The notes below the pieces were generated by a model that saw only the letters and a program-made list of their open reading frames with translations, had not been told where the DNA came from and made no database searches. A stretch of DNA of 22,264 nt from Anaerolineales bacterium (GTDB lineage: Bacteria > Chloroflexota > Anaerolineae > Anaerolineales > Villigracilaceae), in assembly GCA_016928525.1 (NCBI GenBank), contig JAFGKO010000252.1, forward strand, positions 1 to 22,264, written 5' to 3'. Below, in pieces: positions 163 to 19,959 of this stretch. The number at the start of each line of letters is the position of its first letter. Within the stretch, counting starts at the first letter, position 1. A program made the position numbers and the translations under genes.

Positions 163-3100
163 TCAGTAAGTCGTCTCCCGGCTGAGAACCATGAGAGTCA
201 ACAGCGAACTGCGCCCAACCTGAAATAACTTTTCGGGGTCGATTATAGCTGGCACATCACGCGCTGTATGCGCCAGCGCATCAGAACCATCCCAACTCAC
301 TGAAAGCGTCAATGCAGAACGGTCGCCAAAGCTGGAACCGGATTCCCCTCCGTAATGTGGACCACGTCCGCGCATAGTTGTCGCATCATTGTATTTTCCC
401 GCTGCACTCTGAAACAACTTGACCAGCCGGTAGCTGCTTTCTTCGCCCAGCGCGATAGAGTCCCCGCTGCCGTAGCCCACGCCGGATAACTCGAAAACAA
501 CTTCAACGGTGAGCTGGTTCGCCCCCGGCCTGGCATTCATCACATTGACTACACTCAAGCCTTCACCCCGTTCTCCACCCGCCCAGGCAACAAATATCAT
601 CGTTTTCTCCGGCTTATAGGCGCTTTCCGTCATCAGGCGAGCCAGTTCCAGCATCACAGCGACGCCGCTGGCATTATCGTTTGCGCCCGGGTAGAATTGC
701 CCATCCGGGCCAATTCCCAGCCCGTCATAATATGCGCTAACAATGATCACCTGGTTTTGAGCACCAGATAAAGTACCTTCTCCTGGGATACCTCCAATCA
801 CATTGATGTAATTGTCATTCGAATAGTCTTCATACAATTGCGCGTTGATTGACATTTTGACCGTCACGCCCTCGCCGGTTAAAGCGCTCTGATTTACATC
901 CAGCGTGCGCCCCAATTCCTCTAGCGCTGATAAACTACTGCCAGCCGTGTCTAAGAGCACTTCGGCCAACTCGGTAGAAATGATCATGGTTGGCACATCA
1001 CGCAAGCGCTGCGTAGAGGAAATCTCCGCCGGATATAAATCTTTCCGTTCGATTGAAAAATGGTCATCTACGACAATCAATATTCCTGGGACAGCAATGC
1101 CATCGATTTTCTCATAATCTTCACCGCGAACAATCAAGATATGATCGCGCGTCTCGGTATTCAACAACCTATAAGGATCCCGTGATCCCGTATCAGTGAT
1201 CAGTGGCCCAAAAGCGATCCCTAAAATGGTAGCCTGTGCTTCTCCATAACGCTTTGTCCCTGCAAGCTCTGCAAAATCCTGGCGATATTTAAACCCCAAG
1301 TCAGCCTCGCCGTCTTCACCAACGAGGGCTAACAGAGGCGTCTCGGTCAAATGACGGCGAGGTCTCAATAAAGCTTGCAAGTAGGTTTGTTTTTCCCCGG
1401 CAGGCAAAAGGCCATTCTCTTCCATGCGTTTGGCGATATACTGCGCTGCAAGCTCCGTACCTGGCGTGCCGGTTTCACGGCCCTGATACTCATAAGAGGA
1501 CAATGCCTCGATATCCTTCATGACGCGTTGTGGATCGAATTTCAAGCCTTCCGGTCGATACTGGCCTAAGGGTGTGCTGGCTTGAAGTAGGAGAGTCAAA
1601 GCCAGAATCACTACAATCCCAGCGGAAAACGTATAGCGGTTGAACAAACGACTCAAATTCGCCTGGCTTTCGTCCAGAAATCGGCGCAGTCCTTCTCCCA
1701 AGATATTGAATGCGATAATCGACAGGAAAAATGCTGCCCCCGGATAGAGCGCCATCCAGGGATAGCTGCGCCACCAGTTGCGCACATTGGCAATCAGCGC
1801 CGCCCACTCCGGCACATCCGAGAAATACACAGCTACTGATGAAGTCCCGGTATCGGCAATAATGGCTTGAAACCCTCCGCCCAGGAAGATGTTGAGGTAA
1901 CCCAACTCGGCCAACAACATCAAGATTCCGCCTGTTTCCAGAACCGCCAGGACAATCAGGGAATTCATCAAGTTCGGCAGCACATGCCGACCAAGGATTT
2001 GAACCGAGCGGGCGCCGACCGAGCGGGCCGATTCGATATATGGCTGTGGTTTGAGGCTGATCACCTGTCCGCGCACGATTTGGGCAACTTCACCCCAGCC
2101 CACCACAGAAATTGCAACAATAAAGACCCACATACCCTGCTGAATGCCCAATCCCTGGATCAAGAGCATGGCAAACAAGGTAACGGGGAAGGCCGCCCAG
2201 ACTCCCACAGCCCCGGAAATAAAACGATCCAGCCAGGTATCCCGCTTCCAACCGGCAACCGTCCCCAAAATTACGCCAAGGAGTAGACGGGCAGCCATCC
2301 CGAAGAAGGCTAAAGATAGCGTTTGCCGGGCGCCATGCAAAACCAGTGATTGGATATCGCGCCCCACATAATCACTCCCCCAGGGAAAAACCGTAGATGG
2401 CGGGAATGGTGGTGCACTAATCTCCCCCTCAACGACCATGACATTGTTCGTCTCATAAGGACTGACCGACGTCAGGCTGCCACCGAATAGCAGCAAACCC
2501 GTCAATCCAAAGATCAGTATGGAGCCAAGCAGGAGCGAAGGGTTTTTGAATATACGCGAGAATATCCGAATGCGGCTATAAGGAATATCAATCGATTTGT
2601 CATCATCGGGAGAATCTGGCAAGGCTGGCAAAGCAGGCAGAGTTGCTTCGCTCTGATTGGGAATGCCACGCGCTCGCCGTATCCAGGCTCGAAGACCTTG
2701 TACAAGACCACGCATCCAGTCCGCAACTGTTGATCGATCTTCGCGTTCCTGCTCGTCCCCGTCGCTTCTCAAGCGAGCATCAATGAGAGGGAAAACGAAC
2801 TCAATCAGGAGGTTGACCGCCAAAAAGAATATTCCAAATGACAAGATCAAATCGGTCACGAAAGAAGACATTCCCAAATCTATTGCATGCAATAGGGTAA
2901 GACCCACTCCCGGCCAATTAAAGAAAAGCTCCACAACCGGTAAACTTGCCAGTGAAAAGCGCAGAGAAGTCCCGATTGTGGTCAACACCGGGATGAGCAC
3001 GTTGCGTAGGGCATGTACATTGCGGACGACCCGTTCGTGCAAACCCTTGGCGCGCGCCGTGCGGATATAGTCCTGCCCCAGGACATCCGTCAAGGAAACA

Positions 3101-3705
3101 TAAGTGACCTGGGCAATTTGCGCCAGTGGTCTCATCGCCAGCACCAGAACGGGCATGATCAAGTGTGAATCCCAGCCGAAGCCCGCCGATGGCAACACTT
3201 CCATTTCAAAGGAGCGATGCGCCTGGATATTTGCAACCCAAAACAGCATCGCAAGCAAGAAACTTGGTATCGAGATTCCAAGCGTCGACAGAACTACAAT
3301 CAGTGTAGAAAATAATTTATTTCTGGAAACGGCTGCGCCAATCCCTAGCGAAACACCAACGATGAAGGCAACGCCCAGTGCGATCAACAGCAAACCAGCG
3401 CTATTGACCAAAATATCCGACACCAGGGTGAAGGCTGGGACATCCGCCCTTTGCCAGTAATATGACTGTGGATGATCAACGAAAAATTGGATTGTCCGTA
3501 GAAAAGACTGCACTGCAGCGTCCAACGGTTCGGGAGGAAGATGATCCCTTCCGCGCTCGGCCAGGATCAAACCAAAGGAGGTAATATATGCAATCGTGAA
3601 CAGCGTCAGAGCGACATTGACAATGCGGCGAAACACCAATCGGAAAGGCTGCGCAAAAATAGCTGCATTTGCCAATAATGATTCTTTTTTGGCATATTCT
3701 GTCAT
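163..3705 (-). CDS. Tandem ABC transporter permease (DppB-like + DppC-like) fused to an M28-like peptidase domain
   Basis: The 1180-residue protein joins both membrane subunits of a peptide/nickel-type (Dpp/Opp) ABC importer and adds a peptidase-like domain. Residues about 22-314 form a DppB-like permease with six membrane segments and the ATPase-contacting loop DYIRTARAKGL (212-222). Residues about 380-680 form a DppC-like permease with loop PYIESARSVGA (555-565). A further membrane segment near 692-711 would place the C-terminal M28-like domain (about 711-1180) outside the membrane. In that domain the first zinc His is Tyr (AYYD, Y992) and the catalytic Glu is Gly (GGE, G1044); D1010, E1045 and H1146 remain, so hydrolysis is doubtful. 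The ATG at 3705 is chosen because AGGA lies 8 nt upstream; an in-frame GTG at 3732 would add 9 residues. No ATPase or substrate-binding protein gene is present in the window. Domain identities are secure; the substrate is unknown. Confidence 0.85.
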   Translation of the reverse strand: MTEYAKKESLLANAAIFAQPFRLVFRRIVNVALTLFTIAYITSFGLILAERGRDHLPPEPLDAAVQSFLRTIQFFVDHPQSYYWQRADVPAFTLVSDILVNSAGLLLIALGVAFIVGVSLGIGAAVSRNKLFSTLIVVLSTLGISIPSFLLAMLFWVANIQAHRSFEMEVLPSAGFGWDSHLIMPVLVLAMRPLAQIAQVTYVSLTDVLGQDYIRTARAKGLHERVVRNVHALRNVLIPVLTTIGTSLRFSLASLPVVELFFNWPGVGLTLLHAIDLGMSSFVTDLILSFGIFFLAVNLLIEFVFPLIDARLRSDGDEQEREDRSTVADWMRGLVQGLRAWIRRARGIPNQSEATLPALPALPDSPDDDKSIDIPYSRIRIFSRIFKNPSLLLGSILIFGLTGLLLFGGSLTSVSPYETNNVMVVEGEISAPPFPPSTVFPWGSDYVGRDIQSLVLHGARQTLSLAFFGMAARLLLGVILGTVAGWKRDTWLDRFISGAVGVWAAFPVTLFAMLLIQGLGIQQGMWVFIVAISVVGWGEVAQIVRGQVISLKPQPYIESARSVGARSVQILGRHVLPNLMNSLIVLAVLETGGILMLLAELGYLNIFLGGGFQAIIADTGTSSVAVYFSDVPEWAALIANVRNWWRSYPWMALYPGAAFFLSIIAFNILGEGLRRFLDESQANLSRLFNRYTFSAGIVVILALTLLLQASTPLGQYRPEGLKFDPQRVMKDIEALSSYEYQGRETGTPGTELAAQYIAKRMEENGLLPAGEKQTYLQALLRPRRHLTETPLLALVGEDGEADLGFKYRQDFAELAGTKRYGEAQATILGIAFGPLITDTGSRDPYRLLNTETRDHILIVRGEDYEKIDGIAVPGILIVVDDHFSIERKDLYPAEISSTQRLRDVPTMIISTELAEVLLDTAGSSLSALEELGRTLDVNQSALTGEGVTVKMSINAQLYEDYSNDNYINVIGGIPGEGTLSGAQNQVIIVSAYYDGLGIGPDGQFYPGANDNASGVAVMLELARLMTESAYKPEKTMIFVAWAGGERGEGLSVVNVMNARPGANQLTVEVVFELSGVGYGSGDSIALGEESSYRLVKLFQSAAGKYNDATTMRGRGPHYGGESGSSFGDRSALTLSVSWDGSDALAHTARDVPAIIDPEKLFQVGRSSLLTLMVLSRETTY

Positions 3706-3847
3706 GTTGGGTATCCTAGAAAGTATTGTCACCTAGAGATTGCCTAGTTTACCACTGTGGCAACAGAATTGCTTGCATCAATGAGTATCTATCCTGGTTG
3801 GAATCCCGTTCTTATGGCCCATCCTCGCTCTATAAAATAGTTACGTG

Positions 3848-12490: not shown

Positions 12491-15031
12491 CTAACCTCGA
12501 TCGTTTTCCTTCAAAAAGTCCAGGAACACTTCCACTACACTTGGATCGAGATGCTTACCAGCATTGGTTCTAATGTACTCAAGCGCATCCTGTTCAGACC
12601 AGGCATCCCGATAGGGCCGGTCACTGGTCAACGCATCCCACACATCCACAACCGCGAATATACGCGCAGCCAACGGAATTTGCTCGCCTTTCAATTGACG
12701 GGGGTAGCCAGTCCCATCCCAGCGTTCATGATGACAATAAGGGATGTCAAGCGCAGGGCGTAGAAATTCAATCGGCCATAGCATCTCAAAGGCATAAATT
12801 GGGTGCTGCTTCATTAGTTCCCATTCTTCATCAACAAGTTCCCCCGGTTTCAATAATATCCTATCGGGTACACCCATTTTGCCGATATCGTGCAGAAGGG
12901 AGCCGCGACGTATATGAAGGAGCTCTTTATCTTTCACTCCCATAGCCTGCGCAAGCCGAATAGTCATATCGGCCACTCGCAAGGTGTGTCCCTCTGTTTC
13001 CTGGTCGCGCAACTCGAGTGCAAGAGACCAACCTTCGATGGTGGCATCGTACGCAATCTCCAACTCAAAGTTGGAGCGCTGTAAATCACTGAAAAGCCGT
13101 GAATTGTCTATGGCAATCGCCGCCTGCGTCGCCAGGGTCTCCAAAAAACCTGTTCGCTCATCATCCACTCTGATTGGATTTTTATTGAAGACCTCCAATA
13201 CGCCTTGAAGTTGTCCCTTGGCAATCAGTGGAACAGCCCGATAAGAGACAAATCCCTCATCCAGAAGATAGGTACGAACCAAACCATCAGTAACTGAGAA
13301 TTCAGGTATATGCAGAATTTGGCGTTCCATCGCTGCCTGTCCAGGAAGCCCCTCCCCCAAGCGTAATTGAGTCGACTTAATTTCTTTGGCATAAAAACCA
13401 CTTCCAGCCGCAAATTCCAACATATGAGTATATGGATTGAGCAACAATATACTGGCGGCATCAACATTCAGCTGGGCGATGCCCTGGCTAAGCAACACAT
13501 CCAGGATAACCGACAGGTCAAGGTTGGCCGAGATGGCCATATCTATCGAATGCAGCGCCTGGACATGTTGCAGGCGAGACAAAGCCTGATCGTACAATCT
13601 CGCGCGCCGCAGGGCATTCCCAACCATTTCCCCTATCGCTGTCAGCAATTGCACTTCCGATGATGAGTATTGATCAGAAGCGATCCCCTTATTGCGCGCG
13701 CAAAGCAACACTCCAATAAACTTGGATTCAGAAATCACTGGTACAAATACCGCTGGGCCCAGATCGTCATCCCCTCGCAAAGATGGTATCTTTTTAGGAT
13801 CTGCTGATAAATTTTCTGTTGAATAAGGTCGGCGCGTTTGCAGAACCAACCCGCTGATGCCTTTTTCTGCGTTGAATATCACACCAACATTGACTGCGAG
13901 CGGACCATCACCAAGGGCACAAATAAAGTGCTCTTCATCCGGGTCCAGTAGAATGACAGCATTTGCATCGGAACGTAACACACGTCGCACTTCTGCCAGT
14001 ACTAAGGGGAGCATCTCATCTGCAGACTGCGCTACACGCAACTGTGACGAGATAGAGAACAACGACTCCAACTCTGCGGTTTTCGTTCGCAACGATGTCT
14101 CTGTTTGTTTCCGCTCTGTAATATCAAGCGCTGTAAATGTAACTCCCTTGCTGAGATCGCCAGAATCAAGTGGAACGGAGCTAAGCAAAATATCGCGCAT
14201 CAAACCGTCCTTTCGAAGCCAACGCGTTTCTACTGTCCCTATCGCCTGCTCGTGAATTTGACGATACTTCTCTGCGCCAACATACTCATAATCCTCCTGA
14301 GCCGGGTAGAGCATGCGCGCACTATTCCCAACCAACTCCTCACGGGCATATCCGGTCATCTGGCACAGGGTATCATTAGCTTCCTGAATGACACGGTTGA
14401 CAACCATGCCTATCCCAATCGGAGCAGCACGAAAAATGCTGTCCAGTTTAACTTCACGCTCACGCACTGTGCGTAAAGATTGATTTAGCAAATTCGAGAA
14501 AAACCATTCCAGAAGTGCGACTCCACACAGAGACATAAAGATAAGAATGCCACTTGTCAAAAATACCTCGACATCACGTTCTCCACTACCCCAACCTGCT
14601 GCCACGTAGACAACCAGGCATATCACCAGCATGATCCAGCGCGCCCGATTCCCCGAGAGCATACCTGCCAACAGAACAGCAATTGCCAATTGGAGCACAG
14701 CGGTCGTAATGGGGCCAACCATGAATATCATATACCCGGAAAACATGAGAAAAACAAACGGAAGCAGGTAACCACTTACATGCCATTGTCTTTTTTGTAT
14801 CCAGTACCATCCGATAACAATCAATAAATCCATCGACGCCATGATCAGGGTCGTCTCATTGTTTGGTACTCCAATGCCATAATTAATGATCAGGACAATA
14901 ACAGTCATTATCAACATTCCCGCACTGACCAATGTATAAATAACGCGTGTCAAATATTCTTGCCTTGCAACTCCCTCCTCTTCTACACGCGGGTTTGTCA
15001 ACTCATGCCATAGTTTTTTCAAAAATACCAA
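12491..15031 (-). CDS. Membrane sensor PAS-GAF-GAF-HD-GYP, predicted c-di-GMP phosphodiesterase
   Basis: This protein of about 846 residues is a signalling enzyme predicted to hydrolyse cyclic di-GMP. In order: six hydrophobic membrane segments (about 27-178), a PAS domain (about 197-306), two GAF domains (about 331-476 and 501-646), and a C-terminal HD-GYP domain (about 660-846) with HDIGK (714-718) and HHERWDGTGYP (767-777). All motif residues expected for metal binding and the GYP loop are present, so it should be active. No ATG is available at the start. The TTG at 15031 is chosen because GGAG lies 11 nt upstream; TTG codons at 15073 and 15022 are alternatives. It diverges from the hydrolase-ligase gene. 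A TATACT on the minus strand at 15100-15105 may be its -10. Its signal is unknown. Confidence 0.88.
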   Translation of the reverse strand: MVFLKKLWHELTNPRVEEEGVARQEYLTRVIYTLVSAGMLIMTVIVLIINYGIGVPNNETTLIMASMDLLIVIGWYWIQKRQWHVSGYLLPFVFLMFSGYMIFMVGPITTAVLQLAIAVLLAGMLSGNRARWIMLVICLVVYVAAGWGSGERDVEVFLTSGILIFMSLCGVALLEWFFSNLLNQSLRTVREREVKLDSIFRAAPIGIGMVVNRVIQEANDTLCQMTGYAREELVGNSARMLYPAQEDYEYVGAEKYRQIHEQAIGTVETRWLRKDGLMRDILLSSVPLDSGDLSKGVTFTALDITERKQTETSLRTKTAELESLFSISSQLRVAQSADEMLPLVLAEVRRVLRSDANAVILLDPDEEHFICALGDGPLAVNVGVIFNAEKGISGLVLQTRRPYSTENLSADPKKIPSLRGDDDLGPAVFVPVISESKFIGVLLCARNKGIASDQYSSSEVQLLTAIGEMVGNALRRARLYDQALSRLQHVQALHSIDMAISANLDLSVILDVLLSQGIAQLNVDAASILLLNPYTHMLEFAAGSGFYAKEIKSTQLRLGEGLPGQAAMERQILHIPEFSVTDGLVRTYLLDEGFVSYRAVPLIAKGQLQGVLEVFNKNPIRVDDERTGFLETLATQAAIAIDNSRLFSDLQRSNFELEIAYDATIEGWSLALELRDQETEGHTLRVADMTIRLAQAMGVKDKELLHIRRGSLLHDIGKMGVPDRILLKPGELVDEEWELMKQHPIYAFEMLWPIEFLRPALDIPYCHHERWDGTGYPRQLKGEQIPLAARIFAVVDVWDALTSDRPYRDAWSEQDALEYIRTNAGKHLDPSVVEVFLDFLKENDRG

Positions 15032-15128
15032 TGCGATTCTATCTCCATACAAATTATTTTCCAAACCAAGCAAGAAAATACATCTGGTTTTGCGGATTCA
15101 GTATAGCCCGATACCCGGCACTCAAAAA

Positions 15129-15163: not shown

Positions 15164-17659
15164 ATGGACATTGACCTGGATCTCTACCGGCACGAAGTAA
15201 GGGTTTCGACAAATCCGTTGGTGCGGCTTTCAGCCATCGACATCTCGCCCGAGAGACCCCAACGGACCTTTGTCTTCCTACATGGCTTCGGGGGATACGC
15301 CAGACAGTGGATTTACCAGCTTCGCAAATTTTCACTGGAAAATCGCGTCATTGCACTCGACCTGCGAGGGCACGGCCTCTCAGACAAGGCATCCAACGGC
15401 TACGATATGCAGTCCAGCCAAGCCGACATCGAGAAGGCTCTAGAAATTCTTAAAGTCAACACTGCTTTTATACTGGTAGGGCATTCTTTCGGCGGTGCGC
15501 TGGCTACCGAGTTCGCCCTCAACCACCCTGAGCGAATTGAAGGATTGATTCTGATGGCAACCGCCGGGGAGTTCAAACTCAACCCGCTCTTCAGGTTTGG
15601 GCTCAATCTTCCCATCTGGCTGCTACGTCTGATCGGACCTTTCACGCGGAACTGGCTTTCAGCCCCGCCGCGGGCCCTCAAACCTTTTTATCACGAAAAC
15701 CTCTCTAAATGGGTCGGCTGGGACAAGCTCCCAGCGCTGCAAGTGCCCACCCTCGTCATCCGCGGCCACCGTGACCTGGTCTTTGAACGACCGATGTTCG
15801 AGAAGGTTGCAGGTTCCATTCCAGGAGCTGAAGAAGCCGACATCCGGACTTCGGGGCACCTGGTCATGCTCGAACGTCGCGAAGCAGTCAACCGCGCCAT
15901 AGAAAGATTTCTGGAAGGCGAGTCCCAACGCTCCTGGCGGGATGATCGGCCTGCATCCGTTAAATCAAGCCGTGAAATTTTGGAGCGGGAACGTCCGTGG
16001 CTGGCACATTACGAAGCGGGCGTACCGTATACCATTGGCGTCCCCAACATCCCTGCCCATCACTTATTACGTTCGGCGGTCAGGCGCTTTCCCGGACATA
16101 CTGCGCTCATCTTCGAAGGCAGTCGCATCTCATACAGGAAGTTGAATCACGAAGCCAACCGCTTTGCCAACGCCCTGCTTGCGCTGGGTTTGGGAAAAGG
16201 CGCTCGTGTGGTACTGCTCATGCCCAATATCCCTCAAATGGTAATCGCATTCTTCGGGTCGCTCAAAGCCGGCATGACTACCGTGTTCATTCCACCACTG
16301 ACCGAACCCGAAGAAATCATTGCTATCCTGAGTAAAGTGGAAGCCAGCGTGCTGGTAACGCTCAAACTCGCTGCTGGATTAGCGCGACAGATACAGGAAA
16401 ACGTCACTCTTCCGCACATTATCCTGACCGATCCGGGAGAATATCTCTCGCTTCCCAAGAAACTGGTTTCGCGCTGGCGTAATCGCGGGCTCACCGCTCC
16501 GGGGGCGATCCACTTCCATCGCTGGTTGGCAGGTCAAAGTCCACGTTCGCCATCGGTAGAGGTCACACCCGAAGATATGGCCGTCATTCAATTTACCGGG
16601 GGCACGACCGCGGCTGCCAAAGGCGTCATGTTGTCCCATCGCAACCTGGTTGCCAACGCGCTGCAAACCCGCCATTGGCTGCCGGAAGCGAAGGAAGGCA
16701 AAGAGCGCTTTTTATGCGCGCTGCCCTTCTCCCATTCCTACGGCCTGACGACCGCGCTGACTGTGCCCATCACGCTGGGCGCAACGCTGATTTTGAAGGC
16801 GCAATTCCAGATCAAGGCCATCCTCCAGTCTATAAAAAAATATCGCCCAACGATCTTTCCCGGCGTACCAAGCATGTACGTTGCCATCAACAATTTTCGC
16901 GGCGTGCGCAAATATGGCATTCGCTCGATCAACGCCTGCATCAGCGGATCGGCGCCGCTTCCGGTGGAAGTGCAGGAGGCCTTCGAAAAGCTGACCAAGG
17001 GCCGCCTGGTCGAAGGGTACGGCCTGACCGAAGCCTCGCCTGTCACACACGCCAACCCGCTCAATGGTCATCGCAAAGTTGGCAGCATTGGCATCCCGCT
17101 GCCCTCCACCGAAGCGGCAGTGGTGGACCTGGTGCGCGGGCGCAAGGAAGTGGAGCCCGGACAGATCGGCGAGCTGGCCATCCGTGGCCCACAGGTGATG
17201 ATGGGCTACTGGAAGGACGAAAAGGCCACATCCGCCGTGATGACGTCGGATGGCTGGCTGCTGACCGGGGATGTGGCTCAGATGGATTCGGATGGCTATT
17301 TCCGTATCATAGCCCGCAAAGCCGATATGTGGTATCCGGCCAAACCGGGTAAGCCCGCTGGGTTGAGACTGTCGAAACCCGCCTTCCCGCGCGATGTGGA
17401 AGAAGTCATCTACGAGATTCCCCAGATCAAAGAAGTGGCAGTGGTAGCTGTGGCGGGCAACCCATTTGCCTTTGTGATCGCTGGCAAAGAACGCCCCACA
17501 CCCGAGGCCGTGATCGCTTATTGCAAACGGCGCCTGCCCCCCTACCTCGTTCCGCGTTTTGTGATCTTTATGGATGATTTCCCGAGAACGTTTATTGGCA
17601 AAGTCTTGCGACGGGAGTTAACCAGGCGTTATGAAAGGCATATCCGTGAGCAAGTATAA
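15164..17659 (+). CDS. Alpha/beta-hydrolase fused to an AMP-dependent acyl-CoA synthetase-like ligase
   Basis: This 831-residue protein has two catalytic parts. Residues about 15-255 form an alpha/beta-hydrolase with HGFGG oxyanion region (40-44), nucleophile GHSFGG (S108), likely acid D204 in GHRD and H232 in SGHL. Residues about 290-831 form an ANL-superfamily adenylating enzyme: P-loop TGGTTAAAKG (478-487), YGLTE (619-623), TGD (701-703), hinge-side R718 in IARKADM, and the A10 lysine K813 in IGKVLRREL. It would activate a carboxylic acid as acyl-AMP, probably to acyl-CoA; the hydrolase half could release or prepare that acid. The ligase C-terminal subdomain carries an 8-residue insertion (733-740) from a palindromic repeat. 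The ATG at 15164 has no Shine-Dalgarno. The downstream hydrolase gene overlaps its end. Substrate unknown. Confidence 0.85.
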   Translation: MDIDLDLYRHEVRVSTNPLVRLSAIDISPERPQRTFVFLHGFGGYARQWIYQLRKFSLENRVIALDLRGHGLSDKASNGYDMQSSQADIEKALEILKVNTAFILVGHSFGGALATEFALNHPERIEGLILMATAGEFKLNPLFRFGLNLPIWLLRLIGPFTRNWLSAPPRALKPFYHENLSKWVGWDKLPALQVPTLVIRGHRDLVFERPMFEKVAGSIPGAEEADIRTSGHLVMLERREAVNRAIERFLEGESQRSWRDDRPASVKSSREILERERPWLAHYEAGVPYTIGVPNIPAHHLLRSAVRRFPGHTALIFEGSRISYRKLNHEANRFANALLALGLGKGARVVLLMPNIPQMVIAFFGSLKAGMTTVFIPPLTEPEEIIAILSKVEASVLVTLKLAAGLARQIQENVTLPHIILTDPGEYLSLPKKLVSRWRNRGLTAPGAIHFHRWLAGQSPRSPSVEVTPEDMAVIQFTGGTTAAAKGVMLSHRNLVANALQTRHWLPEAKEGKERFLCALPFSHSYGLTTALTVPITLGATLILKAQFQIKAILQSIKKYRPTIFPGVPSMYVAINNFRGVRKYGIRSINACISGSAPLPVEVQEAFEKLTKGRLVEGYGLTEASPVTHANPLNGHRKVGSIGIPLPSTEAAVVDLVRGRKEVEPGQIGELAIRGPQVMMGYWKDEKATSAVMTSDGWLLTGDVAQMDSDGYFRIIARKADMWYPAKPGKPAGLRLSKPAFPRDVEEVIYEIPQIKEVAVVAVAGNPFAFVIAGKERPTPEAVIAYCKRRLPPYLVPRFVIFMDDFPRTFIGKVLRRELTRRYERHIREQV
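17360..17383 (+). repeat. 24-bp in-frame palindromic insertion inside the ligase domain
   Basis: The bases 17360-17380 form an imperfect hairpin: GGGTT (17360-17364) pairs with AACCC (17376-17380), followed inward by two tandem G-A mismatches, two further pairs and a 3-nt loop. The 24 bp encode GLRLSKPA (733-740) and are flanked by near-direct repeats AAGCCCGCT (17351-17359) and AAACCCGCC (17375-17383). Removing the unit leaves an uninterrupted KPA-FPRDVEEV, close to the usual A8-region pattern. This looks like a short palindromic element inserted in a coding region; only one copy was seen in the window. Confidence 0.5.
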
Positions 17660-18497
17660 GGACCGCGGGGATAGCGGTGAAATCAGTATGAATCCCATAG
17701 TTAATTTCGTCCGGGCTGGCGATGGTGTACCGGTCATCATGGTGCATGGACTGGCCGCCTCCCTGTATGACTGGGATATACTTTTGCCCGCATTAGCCTC
17801 AGCAGGCTATGCAGGCTTTGCGCTCGATCTGCTCGGTCATGGCGATAGTATCAAGCCGCGCCAACTGAGTGCTTACACCAGCGAGACAGTCTACGAACAC
17901 ATGCGCGATTGGATCCATTCGCTCGACCTCGAGCAACCCGCCGTGTTGATCGGCCACTCCCTGGGCGGGTATCTGGCCCTGCAATTCGCACTCCGGGAGC
18001 AGGCGCGTGTCCGAGCTCTGGTCCTGGTCAATCCCCTCTACTCGCAGGATCAACTGCCCCCCGCGTTACGTTTTTTCTTGCGCCGCCCGCTGATCAACGT
18101 CAATCTGATCGAGCGGACACCGTATTGGCTCTTCCGACTCCTGATCGATGTTTCCAGTCTGCACTTCGGGAACAGCAACGAAAAGACGCATAGCTTGCCA
18201 GAAGCAGTGCGCATCCAGACTGCACTGGATTACAAACGGGCCGCGCCTGGCATCTACAACATCCCCCGCACGCTGCGCGACCTGACGCCGGACCTGCCGC
18301 ATATCTCCCAGCCGACTCTGGTCATCTGGGGCGCTCGCGACCAGACCATCAACCCGAAGACATTTCCCGTCCTGGTCGAAAGGCTGCCCGGCGCGCGTGG
18401 AGTAGTCATGCCGATTTGTGGGCATGTTCCCCATCAATGTCACGCGTTCGACTTCAATAAAAAAGTTTTCCGCCTTTTAGATTCCCTGAAAGACTAG
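17646..18497 (+). CDS. Alpha/beta-hydrolase
   Basis: This serine hydrolase of about 283 residues has the alpha/beta fold: oxyanion region VHGLAA, nucleophile elbow GHSLGG (S105), acid D232 in WGARDQT and catalytic H260 in CGHVPHQ, so the triad is complete. A cap segment lies between about 135 and 200. The preferred start is the GTG at 17646, preceded by GAAAGG; it overlaps the 3' end of the fusion gene by 14 bp, suggesting translational coupling. An ATG at 17631 (longer) and an ATG at 17688 (MNPIVNF) are alternatives. Being the second hydrolase in this two-gene operon, it may act on the same lipid or ester pathway as the fusion enzyme, which is inference. The substrate is not known. Confidence 0.88.
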   Translation: MSKYKDRGDSGEISMNPIVNFVRAGDGVPVIMVHGLAASLYDWDILLPALASAGYAGFALDLLGHGDSIKPRQLSAYTSETVYEHMRDWIHSLDLEQPAVLIGHSLGGYLALQFALREQARVRALVLVNPLYSQDQLPPALRFFLRRPLINVNLIERTPYWLFRLLIDVSSLHFGNSNEKTHSLPEAVRIQTALDYKRAAPGIYNIPRTLRDLTPDLPHISQPTLVIWGARDQTINPKTFPVLVERLPGARGVVMPICGHVPHQCHAFDFNKKVFRLLDSLKD

Positions 18498-18501
18498 AAG
18501 T

Positions 18502-19959
18502 CTATCCCCGCTCTTCACTGTACACCACAATACGGTTTTTCCCCATTTGTTTCGCTCGGTAGAGCGCCTGATCCGCTTTCTGGAGTAGTGTTTCTCCAGA
18601 TGATCCATGACCTGGAAACACAGCAATCCCTATCGATACACTGATACTGACACTTTCGTTCTTATAAACAATATAATGTTTGGCGATATTCTCTCGCAAT
18701 TTTTCTGCCCTTTCAAGGGCAATCTCCTCAGCTACATTGCTCAACACAACAACAAACTCATCACCGCCGTAACGGCAGGCGATATCTCCGGCACGAATAC
18801 TCGATTGAACTACTTCCGCAATGTGTACCAGGAAATCATCCCCAGCCTTATGACCGTATTTATCATTGACATCCTTAAGCCGGTCGCTATCCATCATCAG
18901 GATTGCCAGTGACGTCCCAGAACGCCTTGAACGGGCAAATTCCACTTCTAACATTTCTTGAAGGTAACGGCGGTTAAATAAATTTGTCAACGAATCTCGC
19001 ACAGCCAGTTCTTTTAATTGTTCCTGCAACAATTCTATTCGTTCGATCTGTAACTGCAACAATTGATTGGCGTCCCGCAATTCGACTTCTGTTTTTCTGC
19101 GAAATTCGATCTCCTTCTGAGCTTCCTCATAAAGACGTGCGTTTTGCAAGGCTACCGCTGCAAGGTCTCCAAATCGGTCTAAGACCGATACAGCCTCTTC
19201 TGAGAAGACAATATCATTGTCGAAACCATGCGCAACCCCAAAAACACCGACAACCTTCTCTTTCAGTTTGAGAGGCATCCCGATTATTGAACGAATAACA
19301 CCGTAGCTGTAGTCGTTAGTTCTTCCCGGCCACTGATCATAATTATCAACAACTAGAGGTTTCCCGGTCGCCCAAACAGTTCCGGCCACACCTTCGCCCC
19401 GCTTAACGCTATACCCAAGCGTATGTTCCAAACCGCCAATCCCGACAACCGGCACAAGTTCGTCCGCCTCCTCGATCAGAAGATCAAGATAACCTTGCGA
19501 GGCGCCCAACAATTTGCAGGCTCGCTGGACAATATTCTTTAGAACAACCTCCAAATCCAGGCTGGAGTGCAAATCAAAGGTGGTCTCCTGAAACGCTGTC
19601 AGCACCGCATTTTTGTTTCGTAGCGTATCGTTCTGAGTTGACAAATCGAGATCGCGCAAAATCGTAATTCGCCCCAAGAGATTGCCATCCGGGCCTTTGA
19701 GGAAAGAAACCTTTAGCTCCGCACAAATTTTCTGCCCATTATCAGGCTGCAAGTTTGTACCTTTCCACCCATCCTGCAGAAACCCATCGACAGCCAGAGA
19801 AATAGATCGACGGGATAATACTTCATCCACCAACTTACCCACTGCGTCGGAGTGTTTTATATTAAGCAATTTTTCCCCTGCCTGATTGATCCCTACTATT
19901 TTATTCTTGCCATCTACAATTAAGCAGGCGTCAGGGAAATCGATAAGCGGGAGTCCCAT
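18502..19959 (-). CDS. PAS-GAF-GGDEF protein, predicted diguanylate cyclase
   Basis: This 485-residue cytoplasmic protein should make cyclic di-GMP from GTP. In order: a PAS-like domain (1-105), a GAF domain (about 130-275), a coiled-coil linker (about 278-318) and a GGDEF domain (about 320-480). The active-site loop is intact (YGGDEF, 397-402). RAGD at 389-392 lies exactly five residues before GGDEF, the usual position of the inhibitory RxxD site for product feedback. No membrane segment or signal peptide is seen. The gene converges on the hydrolase gene with only 4 bp between them and no clear terminator. The ATG at 19959 lacks a Shine-Dalgarno sequence; a TATAAT lies 20 bp upstream on the same strand. 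It may work opposite to the HD-GYP enzyme encoded at 12491-15031. Confidence 0.92.
   Translation of the reverse strand: MGLPLIDFPDACLIVDGKNKIVGINQAGEKLLNIKHSDAVGKLVDEVLSRRSISLAVDGFLQDGWKGTNLQPDNGQKICAELKVSFLKGPDGNLLGRITILRDLDLSTQNDTLRNKNAVLTAFQETTFDLHSSLDLEVVLKNIVQRACKLLGASQGYLDLLIEEADELVPVVGIGGLEHTLGYSVKRGEGVAGTVWATGKPLVVDNYDQWPGRTNDYSYGVIRSIIGMPLKLKEKVVGVFGVAHGFDNDIVFSEEAVSVLDRFGDLAAVALQNARLYEEAQKEIEFRRKTEVELRDANQLLQLQIERIELLQEQLKELAVRDSLTNLFNRRYLQEMLEVEFARSRRSGTSLAILMMDSDRLKDVNDKYGHKAGDDFLVHIAEVVQSSIRAGDIACRYGGDEFVVVLSNVAEEIALERAEKLRENIAKHYIVYKNESVSISVSIGIAVFPGHGSSGETLLQKADQALYRAKQMGKNRIVVYSEERG

Follow-up and report, generated by a model that had tools for sequence, protein, structure and literature searches.

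A DppB-DppC permease fusion with a membrane-tethered M28-fold ectodomain and a predicted pseudo-active site in Anaerolineae

Introduction

What could an aminopeptidase-like domain do when it is built into the permease chain of a peptide-type ATP-binding cassette (ABC) importer? The question is raised by a gene on the minus strand of a 22,264-nucleotide stretch of contig JAFGKO010000252.1 from an Anaerolineales bacterium (GenBank assembly GCA_016928525.1; the whole stretch is referred to as the window). The gene encodes, in one unbroken frame, a DppB-type half, a linker, a DppC-type half, a 13th membrane segment, and an ectodomain of M28 peptidase fold. To our knowledge, type I ABC importers are held to need a binding protein of one general fold. 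We describe here a family, present in many Anaerolineae, that combines a translocator with an enzyme-derived domain tied to its gate and in which the scoop that docks the substrate-binding protein (SBP) is cut short. The ectodomain appears to be a catalytically dead pseudo-peptidase, and a tethered receptor is the best remaining reading of it. The family thereby offers a system in which the idea of a new receptor type, and that of dead peptidases re-used in transport, can be put to the test.

Results

The open frame at 163-3732 encodes 1189 amino acids (aa) from a GTG codon, and an ATG at 3705 yields 1180 aa. Because the latter is near the length of most unextended homologues, 163-3705 is taken as the gene, in agreement with the extent given in an initial annotation made from the sequence alone; residue numbers count from this ATG unless marked as GTG numbering. 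That annotation had recognized DppB-like and DppC-like permeases and an M28-like domain in one chain, and database matches bear this out. BPD_transp_1 of Pfam was found twice, so in both halves (E 5e-41, best stretch 126-322), and Peptidase_M28 once at 977-1174 (E 6e-19; GTG numbering). Opp/Nik/Dpp "B" models of NCBIfam match at about 85-326 and "C" models at about 390-689; the curated equivalog cut-offs (Opp2B, DppB, NikB, and others) were reached by none of the 25 models shown, each lying far below. A sequence search of the PDB returned DppB (8z1v) at 189-322, DppC (8wd9) at 442-689, and M28 aminopeptidases at 989-1057. The chain is laid out as follows (TM, transmembrane segment).

163..3705, minus strand: whole gene, DppB-DppC-TM13-M28 fusion, 1180 aa (ATG at 3705, stop at 163-165; in-frame GTG upstream at 3732, giving 1189 aa)
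2770..3705, minus strand: DppB-type permease half, residues 1-312, six membrane segments (BPD_transp_1, Opp2B and other models, DppB structures)
3409..3555, minus strand: shortened outer loop between TM1 and TM2, residues 51-99, with the DppB scoop cut short (alignments; scoop as defined in an excerpt of PMC12136057)
2980..3078, minus strand: EAA (ATPase-coupling) loop of the B half, residues 210-242, canonical by alignment
2542..2769, minus strand: charged cytoplasmic linker, residues 313-388, poorly conserved by conservation score
1666..2541, minus strand: DppC-type permease half, residues 389-680, six membrane segments (Pfam, NCBIfam, and PDB sequence matches)
1951..2046, minus strand: EAA loop of the C half, residues 554-585, canonical by alignment
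1756..1905, minus strand: enlarged outer loop between TM5 and TM6 of the C half, residues 601-650, 15-20 residues above five ordinary DppC/OppC proteins
1564..1629, minus strand: 13th membrane segment, residues 693-714, running in to out (hydropathy, charge count)
166..1545, minus strand: outer domain, residues 721-1180, having the fold of an M28 aminopeptidase plus an inserted domain (fold searches)
268..732, minus strand: pseudo-active site, Y992 to H1146 (alignment with canonical M28 domains)

The 13 membrane segments, six per half plus 693-714, were placed manually from hydropathy and the DppB/DppC layout, and the M28 domain that follows them is predicted to lie outside the membrane, as the initial annotation had it. 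This topology is supported by the distribution of near-membrane lysine and arginine, which make up 27 of 145 residues on the inner side versus 11 of 148 on the outer side, and agrees with the presence, in relatives, of N-terminal domains of cytoplasmic type (dephospho-CoA kinase, ABC ATPase). The linker at 313-388 was the least conserved segment compared, scoring 0.42 versus 0.73 and 0.81 in the permease halves.

Both Pfam and fold searches place the ectodomain in the M28 family. The fold searches extend this assignment, with the outer domain, starting at about residue 721, following as a whole a BSAP-like M28 aminopeptidase with an inserted domain rather than just the M28 core. The inserted domain is presumably of the PA type, by analogy with BSAP; a Pfam scan of the fusion chain gave no PA match. 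Alignment with canonical M28 domains assigned the six ligand or catalytic positions of the Vibrio aminopeptidase to the following codons, with the catalytic Glu151 replaced by Gly and His97 by Tyr in the window protein.

730-732, minus strand: Y992, at the position of His97
676-678, minus strand: D1010, at the position of Asp117
574-576, minus strand: G1044, at the position of the catalytic Glu151
571-573, minus strand: E1045, at the position of Glu152
490-492, minus strand: E1072, at the position of Asp179
268-270, minus strand: H1146, at the position of His256

The same loss recurs in the family, which comprises fused proteins and split ones whose DppB half is a separate gene (see below). 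Homologues below 740 aa (5/240) being left out, Gly, Ala, Ser, Val, or Met stands for the catalytic Glu in 235/235 aligned homologues (120/120 close fused, 115/115 split) and Tyr for His97 in 120/120 close homologues, a subfamily that keeps four of the six positions. The full two-Zn ligand set with the catalytic Glu was found in 0/235, a count that omits His256 for the 115 split proteins, in which this column is all gap; among 50 permease-linked locus copies, none had the full key-residue set. Six canonical M28 domains, from neighbor genes or C-terminal extensions, keep their motifs in the same alignment. Nevertheless, within the ectodomain of the close 120, conservation is highest at the pocket motifs (0.865 versus 0.655), a difference reached by 2/461 shifted patterns. 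To judge from these residues, the M28 domain is a catalytically dead pseudo-peptidase, and the hydrolase coupled to import that the initial annotation had proposed as one option finds no support.

The initial annotation had proposed a search for this architecture, and a protein search with the fusion returned 689 homologues at E ≤ 0.001; the best 120 of the 689 share 53-100% identity over 78-100% of the query, and one of these 120 is labeled Candidatus Atribacteria. A scan of genome contigs yielded 15 fusion loci, all labeled Chloroflexota, and the chain is intact in the isolate Thermanaerothrix daxensis GNS-1 (L003; class Anaerolineae). At least 28/199 genomes from the class of T. daxensis have a full-length, stop-free single-frame match, a manual count from listed rows that draft genomes make a lower bound. 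Where source databases name these homologues, they do so mostly as permease or M28 peptidase, or as dephospho-CoA kinase in the case of some that have a CoaE domain.

In eight loci (L046-L050, L052, L054, L055), a DppB gene of 304-322 aa adjoins a DppC-M28 gene of 792-849 aa; when one such split DppC-M28 protein served as query, 693 homologues came up at E ≤ 0.001, and 120 of the 693 were listed. On a FastTree tree of 106 DppC-M28 regions (68 fused and 38 split, labels from length; midpoint root; every fourth P-series homologue sampled), fused versus split is one change, with a support of 0.913 for the fused clade, whereas 500 label shuffles needed 24-37 changes. This tree fits a single fusion (or splitting) that was kept afterwards, and the fusion appears to be an old family.

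On the cytoplasmic face, each permease half has an EAA coupling loop between TM4 and TM5, whose key residues are present in 78-80/80 close fused members; split members and distant fused ones retain them for the most part. The outer face differs from that of ordinary permeases. According to an excerpt of PMC12136057, the scoop motif of E. coli DppB, residues 32-62, docks in the DppA cleft, its deletion impairs uptake, and the E. coli Dpp translocator is inactive without DppA. The scoop stretch measures 8-11 residues in 100/100 members (80 close fused, 12 distant fused, 8 split) versus 28-38 in 24 ordinary DppB/OppB proteins (E. coli DppB and 23 from genomes or loci also carrying the fusion), lengths that depend on the alignment, as a smaller first one gave 12-19 versus 28-31. 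The whole TM1-TM2 loop has 41-52 residues in members versus 63-94 in controls, and a "PG" signature after TM1 occurs in 20/24 controls versus 4/100 members. With a scoop of ordinary length in 0/100 members measured, the fusion is filed as a variant, not as an ordinary Dpp/Opp-type permease, because its DppB scoop is cut short.

The outer loop between TM5 and TM6 of the DppC half is 31 residues long in five ordinary DppC/OppC proteins. Among fused members (80 close, 15 distant) it spans 46-51 residues; the 111 split members have a median of 46 and a range of 14-47, with at least one short loop at the minimum of 14 residues. Left out were fused proteins outside 1140-1210 aa (40/120) from the scoop, DppC-loop, and EAA counts, split proteins below 780 aa (9/120) from the latter two, and duplicates between loci and six DppC-like open reading frames among the control frames from the scoop comparison. 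As the shortened scoop and the enlarged DppC loop are common to fused and split forms, they go with the M28 domain and not with the B-C join.

The initial annotation had also called for a check of ATPases and binding proteins. Oligo_HPY (DppD/F-type) ATPases and SBP_bac_5 proteins were detected in 32/32 carrier genomes and likewise in 11/14 unrelated control genomes, a result that speaks for availability of these components rather than partnership. In locus L001, a same-strand run continues from the fusion through two SBP genes to OppD and OppF. Right behind the fusion, SBP_bac_5 genes occur in both L001 and L079, and the L067 stretch contains one as well. Opp relatives were found near the fusion in 2/15 loci of the contig scan (L001; L005 by cluster) and, by BLAST with the L001 proteins, in 3 (L067, L072, L079) of 32 further stretches, a set that includes one repeat of L003 and several stretches cut off by a contig edge. 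Beside the split permease, 6/12 stretches (L046, L047, L048, L049, L052, L053) encode a protein of 1599-1689 aa with M28 matches, comprising two M28 stretches by Pfam in L046, L049, and L053; its first M28 domain is canonical in the four aligned proteins (L046, L047, L049, L053). Two fused homologues, P0108 and P0114, have an extra C-terminal M28 domain that is canonical (Pfam for P0108 only).

Discussion

We favor, tentatively and at slightly less than even confidence, a peptide importer that is driven by ATPases and in which the dead aminopeptidase tethered to it modifies the binding-protein step or takes its place. In this mechanism, the fusion would be a single-chain Dpp/Opp-type translocator, its two halves forming the usual pseudo-dimer with the flexible linker on the cytoplasmic side. 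We infer that import itself, with peptides as substrate, is driven by partner ATPases of the DppD/DppF type, usually encoded elsewhere, via both EAA loops. The 13th helix would tie the catalytically dead M28 domain to the outer face, where it may act as a built-in receptor for peptides (their N-terminus) or as a lid. Peptides, trimmed beforehand by separate active M28 enzymes in some lineages, would bind the retained acidic/His/Tyr pocket and then go to the translocation path, and the ectodomain would take over or modify the step done ordinarily by the DppB scoop and a free binding protein. A stronger version, in which the dead aminopeptidase has replaced the binding protein altogether, with the scoop gone, the DppC gate loop remodeled to meet the added domain, and the former active-site pocket recognizing the N-terminus of the substrate, we consider unlikely; if true, it would give a type I importer a receptor without the binding-protein fold.

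Several observations weigh against the favored mechanism. Glu does stand in the catalytic column of 17/50 locus copies, all distant fused, although each of these is without another key residue (16 without His97, and L025 with Lys for Asp117), so that the pseudo-peptidase assignment is unchanged. Distant fused lineages do not retain the pocket residues of the close subfamily, which makes one shared ligand doubtful, and some distant fused members deviate in the EAA loops (P239 kept in 8/12, N578 in 12/15). The control set for the DppC loop is small (n=5), and the full-chain AF2 model is poor (pLDDT 66.3, pTM 0.46) and does not give the position of the ectodomain. Most stretches have no Opp ATPase or SBP gene near the fusion, and the SBP genes right after it in L001 and L079 indicate that a free SBP may still be needed. 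While the shortened scoop speaks against the usual SBP docking, these two neighborhoods speak for an SBP taking part.

It is these same SBP genes, together with the one in L067, the long M28 proteins beside split loci, and the variable pocket of distant members, that lend weight to an ordinary SBP-dependent peptide importer, incidentally fused, whose dead M28 domain would be a scaffold (e.g., holding a partner peptidase or SBP near the gate) and bind no substrate. We regard this as somewhat unlikely, given that the SBP-engaging scoop is shortened in all 100 members measured and that the pocket is the most conserved ectodomain part in the close subfamily. The fold and domain order would also suit a peptidase that is active and cuts peptides at the gate ahead of import, as would the four positions kept in the close subfamily and the 17 Glu-bearing copies; moreover, the entry for the Vibrio/Aeromonas enzyme with Glu151 mutated to His (2anp) has "functional" in its title, implying that the catalytic Glu is not irreplaceable. 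None of the substitutes for Glu or His97 seen in the aligned homologues is a general base, however, the complete set is absent from all 50 locus copies, and the E424A mutant of GCPII is titled "inactive" (3sje). With its active-site residues lost, we rejected this highly improbable candidate.

A quite improbable alternative is that the protein has given up peptide import and serves as a sensor, or as a module in a different membrane system, for instance the MacB-type exporter that adjoins it in one lineage: MacB/FtsX-type and HlyD-type genes lie next to the fusion in L061, L065, L071, L076, and L086, and four of those genomes encode an N-terminal ABC ATPase, with Walker A lost by eye in L025, L031, and L040. 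Yet nearly all members counted retain the EAA residues in both halves, and the MacB neighborhood was seen only in loci with an N-terminal ATPase-like extension (Pfam in four; by eye in L085 and L086). That an assembly or frame artefact joins separate genes is, finally, almost inconceivable. The initial annotation had held that separate genes in relatives, joined here by assembly error, would overturn it; separate, adjacent dppB and dppC-M28 genes do exist in related genomes, but they form a separate branch on intact contigs, so the fusion is not an assembly artefact. Homologues at 53-89% identity on other contigs, the intact copy in the isolate, and the single change on the tree also led us to reject this candidate.

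Tethered receptors have precedents. OpuA is a type I importer with its substrate-binding domain tethered to the translocator, and the tethered domains of GlnPQ have the ordinary substrate-binding-protein fold; the fusion differs from both in that its tethered domain has the M28 peptidase fold. What it shares with GlnPQ, as portrayed in an excerpt of PMC8025302, is the covalent attachment of a candidate receptor to the outer side of the permease. With DppABCDF/OppABCDF (E. coli DppBC, 8z1v; PMC12136057) it shares the permease fold of both halves, the EAA loops, the PEW motif of the DppC outer loop, and DppD/F-type ATPases in the genomes, and differs in having B and C in one chain, a shortened scoop, an enlarged DppC outer loop, and the extra TM13 and ectodomain. 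Unlike the M28 aminopeptidases of B. subtilis (BSAP, 6hc6), Aneurinibacillus (2ek8), and Vibrio (1amp), the ectodomain has its catalytic Glu and one Zn-ligand His replaced and is membrane-tethered to a permease. A dead M28 fold on a membrane protein, used as receptor or scaffold, is also seen in the transferrin receptor, which was among the fold-search matches, and in nicalin, which was among the sequence-search matches and absent from the 50 matches listed from either fold search; both are eukaryotic and unattached to an ABC transporter, and no orthology is claimed. Among open-licence PMC papers only, we found none on an importer bearing a dead peptidase or on a permease fused to an M28 domain, and none on an oligopeptide ABC transporter with an aminopeptidase in Anaerolineae.

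Additional domains and neighboring genes

A dephospho-CoA kinase (CoaE) domain occupies the N-terminus in 28 of the best 120 homologues (including P0012, P0040, and P0044), a position checked by Pfam in L002 (9224-13510); since the L002 genome also encodes a separate CoaE, the fused one is a second copy there. An ABC ATPase domain (ABC_tran, Pfam) is present at the N-terminus in at least four distant members (L020, L025, L031, and L040), and by eye also in L085 and L086; its Walker A motif appears by eye intact in L020 and lost in the other three Pfam-matched proteins. The genomes of L020, L025, L031, and L040 are those of L061, L065, L071, and L076. The MacB/FtsX-type genes next to the fusion encode about 750 aa and the HlyD-type genes about 390-490 aa (Pfam check in L065 for both genes and in L061 for the MacB/FtsX-type gene only), and in L085 a MacB-type gene alone stands beside the fusion.

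A seventh long M28 protein, of about 1600-1690 aa, occurs in L057. Between the long M28 protein and the split dppC-M28 gene lies a gene of about 400 aa in 5/6 stretches, replaced by a 175-aa gene in L053; the two of these roughly 400-aa genes that were scanned (L046, L048) have PD40 propeller matches. Some SBP_bac_5 matches fall within open frames that, at 830-1140 aa, exceed the usual length of a binding protein (G130:C309, G086:C105, G129:C516, G022:C7).

Elsewhere in the window, by eye, one 831-aa frame at 15164-17659 (plus strand) joins an alpha/beta-hydrolase to an AMP-forming acyl-CoA ligase and is followed by a second alpha/beta-hydrolase at 17631-18497 (plus strand), and large PAS/GAF signaling proteins ending in HD-GYP and GGDEF domains are encoded at 12491-15073 and 18502-19959 (minus strand).

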